Of a DNA stretch of 64,000 nucleotides, positions 43,148-47,528 are shown piece after piece. Every line of letters begins with the position of its first letter. Positions within the stretch are counted from its first letter, which is position 1. The notes under the pieces were generated by a model. That model saw only the letters and a list, made by a program, of their open reading frames with translations. It searched no databases and had not been told where the DNA came from. The DNA is taken from NCBI GenBank assembly GCA_025456205.1, contig JALOLA010000006.1:1-64000 (forward strand). Direction: 5' to 3'. The position numbers and the translations under genes were made by a program. The stretch comes from Acidobacteriota bacterium. GTDB lineage: Bacteria > Acidobacteriota > Aminicenantia > UBA2199.

Positions 43148-45808
43148 TCAAGTGTTTTTCAAATATTTTTTGAGATGACGGCCGGTGGGCGAGCCGCCCC
43201 GCGCCAGCAGCTGCCGCGGCGTGCCGCTGAACAGCAAGAGCCCGCCGCCGGCGCCCCCCTCGGGGCCCAGCTCGACCACGTGGTCGGCGGAGCTGATCAT
43301 GGCCAAGTTGTGCTCGACGGCCACCACGGTGTTGCGCCTGGCCAGCAGCCGGCCGATGAGCTGCTGGATCACTTCGATGTCGAAAGGGTGCAGGCCGAAG
43401 GATGGCTCGTCGAGCAGGAACAGCATGCCCGAGCGCTCCTCGTTGAGGTACTTGATCAGCTTGAGCTTCTGCAGCTCGCCCGTGGAAAGGCGGGCCAGCT
43501 TCTCGCCCAGGCGCAGGTAGCCCATGCCGTTGTCGCGCAGGCCCTGCAGGGCGGAGGCGGCGGCGGGGACGTCGGCGGCGAATTCGGCGCAGAAGCCGTC
43601 GACGCTCATGGCGAGGATGTCGGCGATGCTGCGCCCGCGCTGGGTGATCTTCAGAACGTCGGGGGCGAAGCCGCTGCCGCGGCAGTGGCCGCAGGTGGAG
43701 CGCACCGCCGGCAGGAACTGCATCTCGATCTCCTGGAAGCCGCGGCCCTTGCATTCCGGGCAGCGCCCCAGGGGCGAATGGAAGGAGAAATGCCCTGCCT
43801 GGTAGCCCAGCAGGCGGCTGGGCTTGAGGGCGGCGAAGAAGTCGCGGATCGGCGCCGAGGCGTCCAGGAAGCCGGCGAGGTTGGTGTTGGCGCGCAGGGA
43901 GCGGACGCCGGGGTCGATGTGCACCTTCTCGAGGGTGCCTGAACCCTGGGGTGACGGGTGCTTAAGGAACATTTCGTCGTACAGCAGCGAGCTCTTGCCG
44001 GCGCCGCTGACGCCGACGATGACCGTCAGCGCCTGGCGGGGGATGCGCAGGTCAAAATGCTTCAGGTTATGGGCGCAGGCGTCGCTGAATTCCATAAAGC
44101 CGGCGGCGCTCTTCCTGGGGGCCCCGGGCCGGGGCCGGCGCTGGAAATGATCCTGGGTGATGGTGTCGCGCCCGGCGAAGAACGCGTCGCGGCCGCCGCT
44201 GAAGATGACGCGCCCGCCCTCGCTCCCGGCCCCCGGGCCCAGCTCGATCACCTGGTCGGCGCAGCGCACCAGCTGCGGGTTGTGCTCGACGAGGACGATG
44301 GTGTTGCCGTTGTCCTTCAGGCGGCGCAGAAAGCGGTCCATCTTGTCGTAATCGGCCGGGTGCAAGTCGGCCGAGGGCTGGTCGATGATCAGCAGGGAAT
44401 CGGACAGGGTGGAGCCCATGATGAACGCCAGGTTGATGCGCTGGTGCTCGCCGCGGGACAGGGTGAATGTCGGCCGGTCCAGCTGGACGTAGTGCAGGCT
44501 GTTCTGGATCAGGAATTGCAGTTTGGCGGCGATCTCGTGAAAAACGTCGGGGGCGATGCGGTTGAGGTAATGTCGCGGGTCCAGGGCGCGGATGAAAGCG
44601 TCGGCCTCGCCGATGGTCATGGCCAGGAAATCGGCGATGGTCCGGCCCTGGACGCGGAAGGAAAGGACCAAAGGGTTGAAGCGGCTGCCGCCGCAGGCCG
44701 GGCAGGCATGATAGGAGGTGAAGCGGCTGAGGAAGGTGCGCGCCTGGACGCGGTACGATTTTTTGCGCAGATAGGCGAAAAGTCCTTCCAGTCCCGGGAA
44801 GCGCCCCGCGCCCCGGAGCAGGAACTCCTTGTCCGCGGCGCTGAACTCGCGCAGCGGCCGCTGCAGGTCCATGCCGGCTTTGGCGGCGTTCTTCAGGAAA
44901 TAGTCGCGGTACTCGCGGTTGGCCGGGGTGTTCAGGGGCAGGACCGCGCCCGCGGCCAGCGAGAGGCCCTCGTCGAAGACCAGGCCGGGGTCGATGGCCG
45001 TCACGTCGCCAAAGCCCTTGCATTGCGGGCAGGCGCCGCGGGCGCTGTTGAAGGAGAACAGGTTCTCGTCGGGGCTTTCATACTCCCGGCGGCAGTGCGG
45101 GCAGTACAGCGAAAAGGGGAAGGCCAGCTTTTCGCGGCCCAGGAATACGGTGAGGATGTTGCGGCTCAGGGCGATGGCGCTGTCGATGGCCTCGAATATG
45201 CGGGCGCGCTCCCCGGGGGCGTTCTCCAGCTCGTCGACAAGGACCAGCAGGGGCTTGCCCTTGCTGCCGGCATCGATGCCAACCTTTTCGCCGTCGCGAA
45301 CCTGGAAGCGGTAGCCGCGGTTGGCCAGGAAGGCGATATCGCCCTGGTAAGCGAAGCAGACGCGCAGGAGGCCGCGCGGGCGCGCCAGCAGGTCCTGTAC
45401 GACCTCGTCGATGCTGAACTTGCGCACTTCATCGCCGCAGCCCGGGCAATGGAAATCGGAGATCTTGGCATAGAGGATGCGCAGGTAATCGAAGATGTCG
45501 GACGCTGTGGCCACGATGGAGCGCGGGTTCTTGTGCGGTTTTTTCTGGCGGAAGGCGATGGCCGGCGGCAGGTTGTCGATGTGGTCGATGTCGGGCTTCT
45601 CGATCTGGTCCAAAAACTGGCGGATATAGGGCGAGATCGACTCGATATAGCGGATGTAGCCCTCCGCGTAAAGGGTGTGAAATGCCAGCGACGACTTGCC
45701 GGCGCCGCTGACCCCGACCAGGGCCGTGATCTTTCCCAGCGGGATGGAGACGTCGATGTTCTTCAGGTTGTTGGTGCGGATGCCCTTGAGAATGATGTTT
45801 TTTTCCAT
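43148..45808 (-). CDS. UvrA-like ABC ATPase with degenerate first nucleotide site
   Basis: An 886-residue UvrA paralogue with two ABC domains: Walker A GVSGAGKSSLAFH and GVSGAGKSSLLYDE. The zinc modules (CPHC with CPQC; CPEC with CGHC) are present. NBD-I is altered: LSRGEHQR replaces LSGGEQQR and Walker B ends LLIIDQPSADLHP, with Gln where UvrA has the catalytic Glu. NBD-II has LSTGELQK but intact FLLDEPSFGLH. It is more likely a UvrA2/drug-resistance-type paralogue than the main excision-repair UvrA. Start MEKNIILKGI at 45808; the track's 57-residue extension runs through repeats. Confidence 0.9.
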   Translation of the reverse strand: MEKNIILKGIRTNNLKNIDVSIPLGKITALVGVSGAGKSSLAFHTLYAEGYIRYIESISPYIRQFLDQIEKPDIDHIDNLPPAIAFRQKKPHKNPRSIVATASDIFDYLRILYAKISDFHCPGCGDEVRKFSIDEVVQDLLARPRGLLRVCFAYQGDIAFLANRGYRFQVRDGEKVGIDAGSKGKPLLVLVDELENAPGERARIFEAIDSAIALSRNILTVFLGREKLAFPFSLYCPHCRREYESPDENLFSFNSARGACPQCKGFGDVTAIDPGLVFDEGLSLAAGAVLPLNTPANREYRDYFLKNAAKAGMDLQRPLREFSAADKEFLLRGAGRFPGLEGLFAYLRKKSYRVQARTFLSRFTSYHACPACGGSRFNPLVLSFRVQGRTIADFLAMTIGEADAFIRALDPRHYLNRIAPDVFHEIAAKLQFLIQNSLHYVQLDRPTFTLSRGEHQRINLAFIMGSTLSDSLLIIDQPSADLHPADYDKMDRFLRRLKDNGNTIVLVEHNPQLVRCADQVIELGPGAGSEGGRVIFSGGRDAFFAGRDTITQDHFQRRPRPGAPRKSAAGFMEFSDACAHNLKHFDLRIPRQALTVIVGVSGAGKSSLLYDEMFLKHPSPQGSGTLEKVHIDPGVRSLRANTNLAGFLDASAPIRDFFAALKPSRLLGYQAGHFSFHSPLGRCPECKGRGFQEIEMQFLPAVRSTCGHCRGSGFAPDVLKITQRGRSIADILAMSVDGFCAEFAADVPAAASALQGLRDNGMGYLRLGEKLARLSTGELQKLKLIKYLNEERSGMLFLLDEPSFGLHPFDIEVIQQLIGRLLARRNTVVAVEHNLAMISSADHVVELGPEGGAGGGLLLFSGTPRQLLARGGSPTGRHLKKYLKNT

Positions 45809-45827
45809 GAATGGGGGACCCGCGGCG

Positions 45828-45833
45828 ATTATA
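45828..45833 (-). promoter_or_regulatory. -10 box upstream of the UvrA-like gene
   Basis: On the minus strand consensus TATAAT lies 19 nt before the ATG at 45808. No convincing -35 element is seen. Confidence 0.45.
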
Positions 45834-45856
45834 CCATGAAAGAACTCGCTGAACTC

Positions 45857-46098
45857 GGCGTGGGGCGAAGGGCGCAAGGCGTAGGGCAGAAAAACACTAA
45901 ATTCCAAGCACCAAATCCCAAATTTCAAATAAATTCCAATTTCCAAATTCCAATGACCAAAACAAAGACCCGGCTCCATGCTGATTTCGGAGGAGCGCTT
46001 TTGTTTGGGTCATTTGGTTATTGGTGCTTGGAGCTTGTTTGGAATTTGGTGCTTGGGATTTGGGATTTTATTCTTACTTGTCACGCGTTACGCGTCAC
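45857..46098. repeat. Word-repeat element with inverted CAAATTCC arms
   Basis: The 297-bp gap holds GGGCGCAAGGCGTAGGGC at the left. An arm of degenerate CCAAATCCCAAATTTC and CCAATTTCCAAATTCC words follows (about 45897-45963), then its imperfect reverse complement with TTGGTGCTTGG and GGAATTTGGTGCTTGGG words (about 46000-46072), and GTCACGCGTTACGCGTCAC (46080-46098). The arms could pair over ~65 bp. No ORF of substance is present. Confidence 0.75.
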
Positions 46099-46105
46099 AA
46101 AGCGC

Positions 46106-46456
46106 TTATTTTATTGTGAAATCGCGGTCGGAGAAATCGTTGATGCGCAGGTCGCGGAGCGAGCAGATGCGCAGGCGGTAGCGGCCGTCAACGGGCAGGC
46201 TCGCCGCTACGGTCCACTGGAATTGGCCGCTGTCCGGAACGCTGGCCGCGATGACGGCGTGCTGCTCGCCGCCCTTGAACAAAAGGATGGCCAGGCTGCC
46301 CTCGATGCCCAGGGTGCGCCACTGCACCGCCACCCGGCTGCCGCGGGCCAGCACTTCGCCGCCGTTGGGGAACTCGATGCGGATGGAGCGCTCGCCTGCG
46401 GAGAGGAGCAGGGAGAGCATGGCCAGCACGACGAACCTTCGCATGATCATCGCCAT
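46106..46456 (-). CDS. Small exported protein with Ser-Thr-rich GPI-anchored-type (PF10342-like) domain
   Basis: A 116-residue protein with a signal peptide (RRFVVLAMLSLLLSAG). The mature part matches the Kre9/Knh1-type beta-sandwich: IEFPNGGEVLARGSRVAVQW, GSLAILLFKGG, GQFQWTVAASLPVDGRYRLR and DFSDRDFTIK. Such domains usually occur in larger surface proteins; here it stands alone. Starts at residue 1 (46456) or at MRRF (46444) are both possible; neither has a good SD. Confidence 0.7.
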   Translation of the reverse strand: MAMIMRRFVVLAMLSLLLSAGERSIRIEFPNGGEVLARGSRVAVQWRTLGIEGSLAILLFKGGEQHAVIAASVPDSGQFQWTVAASLPVDGRYRLRICSLRDLRINDFSDRDFTIK

Positions 46457-46511
46457 TAAATAAAAGATGCCTTTTTGCTATCTCACGTTTTTAAATTTTT
46501 CCCAAAAAAAA

Positions 46512-46593
46512 TACGCCCGGAGAGACTCGAACTCCCAACGCGCAGCTTCGAAGGCTTCGAAGGCTGCCGCTCTATCCTTTGAGCTACGGGCGC
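46512..46593 (-). tRNA. tRNA-Arg (TCG) with 9-nt duplication in the anticodon loop
   Basis: Minus strand. Acceptor GCGCCCG/CGGGCGT, D arm GCTC-AAAGGATA-GAGC, variable GCGTT and T arm GGGAG-TTCGAGT-CTCTC are intact. The anticodon stem GCAGC/GCTGC encloses CTTCGAAGCCTTCGAA (16 nt) instead of the 7-nt CTTCGAA; AGCCTTCGA is present twice in tandem. Total length is 82 nt (73 without the duplication). No CCA is encoded, and a run of eight Ts follows the discriminator base. The duplicated segment could pair on itself (TTCGAA/TTCGAA) and hide both TCG triplets. Confidence 0.85.
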
Positions 46594-46605: not shown

Positions 46606-46634
46606 ATTATAGCCGGATCCGCCGGCTGCGGCAA
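46606..46634 (-). promoter_or_regulatory. Promoter of tRNA-Arg
   Basis: On the minus strand TTGCCG (46634-46629), 17-bp spacer, consensus TATAAT (46611-46606), 12 nt before the tRNA 5' end. The promoter is intact. Confidence 0.7.
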
Positions 46635-46661: not shown

Positions 46662-47528
46662 ATGCCCAAGCAAACCCCTTTCGGCCGGCCGGTGACCGAG
46701 CTGGCCAGGAAACGCTTTTCGTGCCGCAGCTTCGACGGCCGCGGCCTGGAGCCGGAACAGCTGGAGGCCCTGGCGAATTTTCCCGTTGGCCTGGATCTGC
46801 CCTTTGCCAGCCGCCTGCGCTTCGGCGTGATCGACAGGGAGAAGGTCAGGGCGGAAAACCTGTTCTCCACCGGCAGCTACGGCATGATCAAGGGCGCGCG
46901 CTTCTACCTGGCCGCCCTGGTCGCCACGGACGCGCCGCGCCCCTGGGAGGACATCGGCTTCGCCCTGGAGACGGCGGTCCTTTACGCCACGGCGCTCGAT
47001 CTGGGCAGTTGCTGGATCGGCGGCATCTTCGACCGCAAGAATTTCGCCAGGGCGCTCGCCATGAAGGCAAACGAGATGCTGCCGGCCGTGGTGGCCCTTG
47101 GCCGCCCGGCAACCCGCCCATCCCTGCGCGACCGCCTGGTGCGCTGGAGCGCCAGGGGCAACCTGCGCAAGGATCCCGCCGGCCTTTTCTTTGCCGGCGC
47201 CTGGGGCGCGCCCTTGCCGCTCGCTGCGGCGGACCCTTGGAGCCGCGTGCTGGACTGCGTCCGCCTGGCGCCCTCGGCCTCCAACAAGCAGCCATGGCGC
47301 ATCGTCCGCCAGGGCAGCGCTTTTCATTTCTTTCTCCACCGCGACAAAGCCTATGGCAAATTGATGCCTCTCGCCGACCTGCAGCGCATCGACATGGGCA
47401 TCGCCATGTGCCATTTCCAGTTCAGCGCCGCCGAGCGCGGCCTTGAAGGCGGCTGGGCCGACAATGACCCGCGGCTGCCGGATACGCCGGGCAATTTCGA
47501 ATATATCGCGAGCTTTGTGGCCCGCTAG
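46662..47528 (+). CDS. Nitroreductase-family protein (duplicated half-domain type)
   Basis: A 288-residue FMN-dependent oxidoreductase-like protein of the TM/'putative nitroreductase' group. N-terminal RKRFSCRSFDGRGLEPEQLE and IGFALETAVLYATALDLGSC WIGG-type FMN-binding region, then a second segment beginning CVRLAPSASNKQPWRIV and DMGIAMCHFQFSAAERG. The start at 46662 follows TATAAT by six bases, so the mRNA is probably leaderless. Substrate unknown. Confidence 0.85.
   Translation: MPKQTPFGRPVTELARKRFSCRSFDGRGLEPEQLEALANFPVGLDLPFASRLRFGVIDREKVRAENLFSTGSYGMIKGARFYLAALVATDAPRPWEDIGFALETAVLYATALDLGSCWIGGIFDRKNFARALAMKANEMLPAVVALGRPATRPSLRDRLVRWSARGNLRKDPAGLFFAGAWGAPLPLAAADPWSRVLDCVRLAPSASNKQPWRIVRQGSAFHFFLHRDKAYGKLMPLADLQRIDMGIAMCHFQFSAAERGLEGGWADNDPRLPDTPGNFEYIASFVAR

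Follow-up and report, generated by a model that had tools for sequence, protein, structure and literature searches.

The tRNA-Arg(TCG) gene described here lies on the minus strand of a 64,000-nt stretch of DNA (hereafter the window) that belongs to a draft MAG of 124 contigs, 86.9% complete. ARAGORN and Rfam family RF00005 agree on the identity and extent of the gene (Table 1); RF00005 scores it at 51.6 bits, treating the extra bases as an anticodon-loop insert. The acceptor, D and T arms and the promoter are all intact, as stated in the initial annotation of this locus, with TATAAT and TTGCCG separated by a 17-nt spacer and a run of T residues downstream. CCA is not encoded, which is also the case for the orthologues found in the genus. 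The anticodon arm, GCAGC-CTTCGAAGCCTTCGAA-GCTGC, retains a normal 5-bp stem that closes on a 16-nt loop instead of a 7-nt loop presenting UCG, and both UCG triplets are predicted to be paired. On the opposite strand, an 833-aa open frame (43958-46459, plus strand) runs antisense to the UvrA-like gene and the downstream ORF. We did not take it as a gene, but as an open-frame by-product of high GC content.

Table 1. Features of the tRNA-Arg(TCG) locus (coordinates in the window)
Feature	Position	Strand	Evidence or remark
tRNA-Arg(TCG) gene, 82 nt (73 nt normally)	46512..46593	-	ARAGORN; RF00005; orthologues
Anticodon stem, 5′ half, GCAGC	46563..46567	-	Sequence
Anticodon stem, 3′ half, GCTGC	46542..46546	-	Sequence
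16-nt anticodon loop, CTTCGAAGCCTTCGAA; possible TTCGAA/TTCGAA pairing with a GCC triloop and a bulged C	46547..46562	-	Sequence, fold
TCG anticodon, first copy	46558..46560	-	Predicted unpaired probability 7e-6
TCG anticodon, second copy	46549..46551	-	Predicted unpaired probability 3e-6
9-nt tandem duplication, AGCCTTCGA AGCCTTCGA AGC, 2.3 copies	46545..46565	-	TRF; event geometry; absent from all orthologues
-10 box TATAAT, 12 nt upstream of the mature 5′ end	46606..46611	-	Same place in 14/14 genus orthologues
-35-like box TTGCCG, 17-nt spacer to the -10 box	46629..46634	-	TTGCC or close variant upstream in genus orthologues
Eight consecutive T immediately 3′ of the tRNA gene	46504..46511	-	Sequence
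Upstream neighbour, nitroreductase-like by reading, divergent	46662..47528	+	Beside the tRNA in 13/14 genus loci (tblastn)
Downstream ORF, 116 aa	46106..46456	-	Beside the tRNA in 11/14 genus loci (tblastn)
Downstream UvrA-like ATPase gene, named by reading	43148..45979	-	Kept in 13/14 genus loci (tblastn)

A single perfect tandem duplication accounts for the extra 9 nt; its unit fits four equivalent registers, of which AGCCTTCGA is one. TRF reports a period of 9 with a 100% match over the 21 nt of the whole repeat. Perfect 9-nt tandem repeats of similar length are no rarity in the window's genome, where four others occur in 298 kb. Comparison with relatives, which had been suggested as a check, indicates that the repeat in the tRNA gene is a real 9-nt difference rather than a chance repeat, because the orthologues found in 14 of the 15 same-genus genomes all carry the 7-nt loop CTTCGAA, none has the additional 9 nt, and the L008, L012 and L013 orthologues match the window gene letter for letter over its remaining 73 positions. 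The remaining same-genus genome (76% complete) yielded only a short match, to a different place. Synteny around the gene is conserved, and the gene has undergone no change other than the duplication between AGC repeats. The same comparison identifies the difference as an insertion. Judged from these relatives, the 9-nt change is private to the window's genome and recent, and represents neither a conserved intron nor a new tRNA class. An origin by slippage can be proposed: the unduplicated sequence AGC-CTTCGA-AGC has AGC, a direct repeat of 3 bp, at the foot of the hairpin formed by the anticodon arm, and mispairing between the two AGC copies would add precisely the 9 nt observed. This mispairing may have been aided by the hairpin and by the TTCGAA palindrome.

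The additional repeat could also be an error of the assembly or consensus, or a minor strain variant, in which case the living population would carry a normal 73-nt gene. This explanation is compatible with the draft state of the genome and with the presence of the 73-nt form in every relative, but we consider it unlikely. The 21-nt repeat is far below any sequencing read length, and an assembly error is improbable for this reason. Assemblers tend to collapse short tandem repeats, a tendency that runs opposite to the addition of one, and the genes beside the tRNA are intact and syntenic.

The duplication is predicted to have a strong effect on the structure of the RNA. According to a thermodynamic prediction, which leaves modifications and proteins outside its model, an extended hairpin reaches −36.6 kcal/mol, against −29.2 kcal/mol for the open 16-nt loop, a difference of 7.4 kcal/mol, and each UCG triplet has an unpaired probability below 1e-5. 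The initial annotation had correctly anticipated that TTCGAA/TTCGAA pairing can extend the stem up to a GCC triloop and hide both anticodons, but it omitted the bulged C that separates the old 5-bp stem from the new 6-bp stem; the predicted layout is 5 bp, one bulged C, 6 bp and the triloop. The base C35 is read by arginyl-tRNA synthetases of the E. coli type, and in this model it is buried in the extended hairpin, while an anticodon arm of 11 bp should not fit the decoding site. For these two reasons, we infer that the tRNA-Arg(UCG) of the window is most likely neither charged with arginine nor able to decode. It is probably still transcribed, since neither the promoter nor any other part of the tRNA is damaged.

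Alternatively, the duplicated tRNA could work, either because the extra 9 nt are removed or because a shifted register puts the second UCG copy into a 7-nt loop and lengthens the linker that precedes the anticodon arm. Intactness of the promoter and of the remainder of the tRNA is compatible with this possibility, as are the presence of an RtcB ligase in the window's genome and the combination of common CGG codons with a CCG tRNA that was not found in the assembly. The shifted register would moreover keep four of the five stem pairs; however, its predicted stability falls 13 kcal/mol short of that of the extended hairpin. RtcB is common in bacteria devoid of tRNA introns, and the family is also matched in E. 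coli, which is not known to have any. Processing similar to that of an intron-containing tRNA, one of the options initially put forward, is not supported: no bulge-helix-bulge is predicted, and a search for the tRNA splicing endonuclease (PF01974) gave no match in the 87% complete assembly, whereas the controls gave matches in archaea only. Known bacterial tRNA introns are self-splicing group I introns (PMC4090602), for whose core 9 nt is too short, and Rfam scans of the window revealed no intron family. Given that the insert occurs in no relative, a maintained intron appears very unlikely. The missing CCG tRNA is no proof of function either, because the assembly also lacks tRNA-Trp and tRNA-Ile(GAT). 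Altogether, we regard a working 82-nt tRNA as highly improbable.

Loss of a tRNA-Arg(UCG) raises the question of which tRNAs read CGA and CGG. In most bacteria, CGU, CGC and CGA are read by a tRNA with an ICG anticodon and CGG is read by a CCG tRNA, without any UCG tRNA (PMC3711424). The initial annotation had predicted that CGA would depend on another tRNA-Arg and had proposed a search for an ACG tRNA, which is indeed present in the window's genome (C15:20000-20072), together with TadA. CGA should be read by this tRNA-Arg(ACG)/TadA pair. The TadA gene (C15:21027-21491) lies about 1 kb from the tRNA-Arg(ACG) that TadA would edit. The other tRNA-Arg genes found in this genome have TCT (two) and CCT (one) anticodons. 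A rough gene call on 362 kb of the window's genome gave 2.1 CGA per 1000 codons, 3% of arginine codons, and 14.5 CGG per 1000 codons, which makes CGA a rare codon and CGG a common one. The share of CGA among arginine codons is 3.0% here and 3.9-5.7% in four relatives, a comparison that involves different genes and two less GC-rich relatives and that we did not count as evidence.

What the prediction for CGA overlooked is that the critical codon for the loss of this tRNA is CGG rather than CGA: CGG is used about seven times as often, and the incomplete assembly lacks tRNA-Arg(CCG), which usually reads it. Family, pattern and DNA searches did not find tRNA-Arg(CCG) in the window's assembly. By contrast, most genus members have it: the exact CCG tRNA sequence was found by pattern in 13 of 15 relatives, and ARAGORN confirmed a tRNA-Arg(CCG) in all nine that were checked. 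In total, 39 tRNAs were found in the window's assembly, and tRNA-Trp and tRNA-Ile(GAT) were not among these either. As both are required by any living cell, the assembly must be missing tRNA-bearing stretches, and tRNA-Arg(CCG) likely lies in the unassembled part of the genome, a missing contig being the likely reason for its absence. In several relatives, tRNA-Arg(CCG) is located directly upstream of a glutaredoxin-like gene (for instance, L096:1441-2205), and its surroundings differ in the rest. This glutaredoxin-like neighbour has no DNA or protein match in the window's genome, which fits a missing stretch, with the limit that the neighbourhood of the CCG tRNA varies among relatives. If the genome truly lacked tRNA-Arg(CCG), the 82-nt tRNA would be the sole reader of CGG and would have to work via excision of the 9 nt, perhaps with rejoining by RtcB, or with an enlarged or shifted anticodon arm, a scenario to which we attach very little probability.

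Recent inactivation of a redundant tRNA-Arg(UCG) gene by a lineage-private 9-nt slippage duplication is, in our opinion, the likely explanation. Among the three options offered in the initial annotation, the evidence most favours recent slippage with a dead tRNA as its outcome: the event is private and single, the gene is otherwise identical to three of its orthologues, and the anticodons are hidden in the predicted fold. Slippage in this lineage would have lengthened the anticodon-arm hairpin of a tRNA that is probably still made, with CGA covered by TadA-edited tRNA-Arg(ACG) and CGG by a tRNA-Arg(CCG) assumed to lie outside the assembled contigs. Deletion of tRNA genes that have functional backups has mostly weak effects in E. 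coli grown in rich medium (PMC9981150). Against inactivation stands the fact that the CCG tRNA, which would be needed if the UCG tRNA were dead, was not found in an assembly in which CGG is frequent. That the rest of the gene is free of decay agrees with an inactivation of recent date, but would agree with a functional gene as well. If the tRNA is dead, the locus cleanly captures a backup tRNA just as its loss begins, with the lesion, the substrate of slippage and the unaltered orthologues all open to inspection. A gene that had to work would instead imply repair of the tRNA loop or decoding outside the known bacterial rules. The locus is probably a neat case of a familiar type of event, and a minor curiosity, not a new mechanism.

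The gene resembles known systems to various degrees. It shares with bacterial tRNA-Arg(UCG) and RF00005 the cloverleaf, a D arm with A20, the T arm, the acceptor and the promoter, and 73 of its 82 positions are those of the genus orthologues, but its anticodon loop is 16 nt long and not 7. Deviating prokaryotic tRNA genes have been reviewed (PMC9897764). Like tRNA pseudogenes and decayed tRNA genes, the window gene deviates from the nearly universal loop length of 7 nt, and its product is predicted to be incapable of decoding; unlike them, it is full length, bears a single lesion and is not a remnant of the kind that mobile elements leave behind. The frameshift-suppressor tRNA SufB2, which has one extra loop base (PMC7803779), is also a bacterial tRNA with an anticodon-loop insertion, yet the window tRNA has 9 extra nt, for which closure of a helix is predicted rather than a longer anticodon. 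Intron-containing tRNAs of archaea and eukaryotes similarly carry extra bases near the anticodon, but the window tRNA differs from them in the points discussed above, namely that no bulge-helix-bulge is predicted, that no splicing endonuclease was found and that the insert occurs in no relative. In the archaea described in PMC4090602, tRNA introns are typically 12-25 nt, longer than the 9-nt insert. A limited literature search found no report of a natural insert of this kind in a bacterial tRNA.

Finally, we considered whether the window tRNA could belong to a new, conserved class defined by intron-like or regulatory inserts in tRNAs. Surveys uncovered another enlarged loop, of 17 nt, in a tRNA-Arg-like sequence (L133) from another class of the phylum, but its insert is different and two mismatched acceptor pairs are as expected of a decayed gene. 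The inserted letters of the window tRNA are a pure copy of the host loop, and no relative in the genus or the class has the insert. A pattern search of GTDB 220 (85,462 species genomes, from which records of the window's own genome were possibly left out) for an Arg-TCG tRNA with the same insert returned 17 matches, none of them a tRNA according to ARAGORN run on about 138 bases around each. A pattern for enlarged tRNA-Arg-type loops, run on 396 genomes of the phylum, had a ...YCC ending incompatible with the T arm of the window's gene, and its silence on this tRNA type is therefore of little weight. Once corrected and run over 142 genomes of the class, the pattern recovered the window's gene, used as a positive control, and no second tRNA with such a loop. 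A conserved class of inserts is thus close to untenable. The other survey matches were rejected as a neighbouring tRNA-Thr (L123) and the end of a tmRNA (L124, same place as L169), both by ARAGORN or Rfam, as a likely tRNA-Met D arm, judged by eye (L166), or as not tRNA-like upon reading. The L133 sequence itself (L133:1490-1572, minus strand; G254:C209) has the 17-nt anticodon loop CTTCTGACTAAGATTAA, scores 37.9 bits and receives no ARAGORN call; from its sequence, it looks like a decayed tRNA gene.
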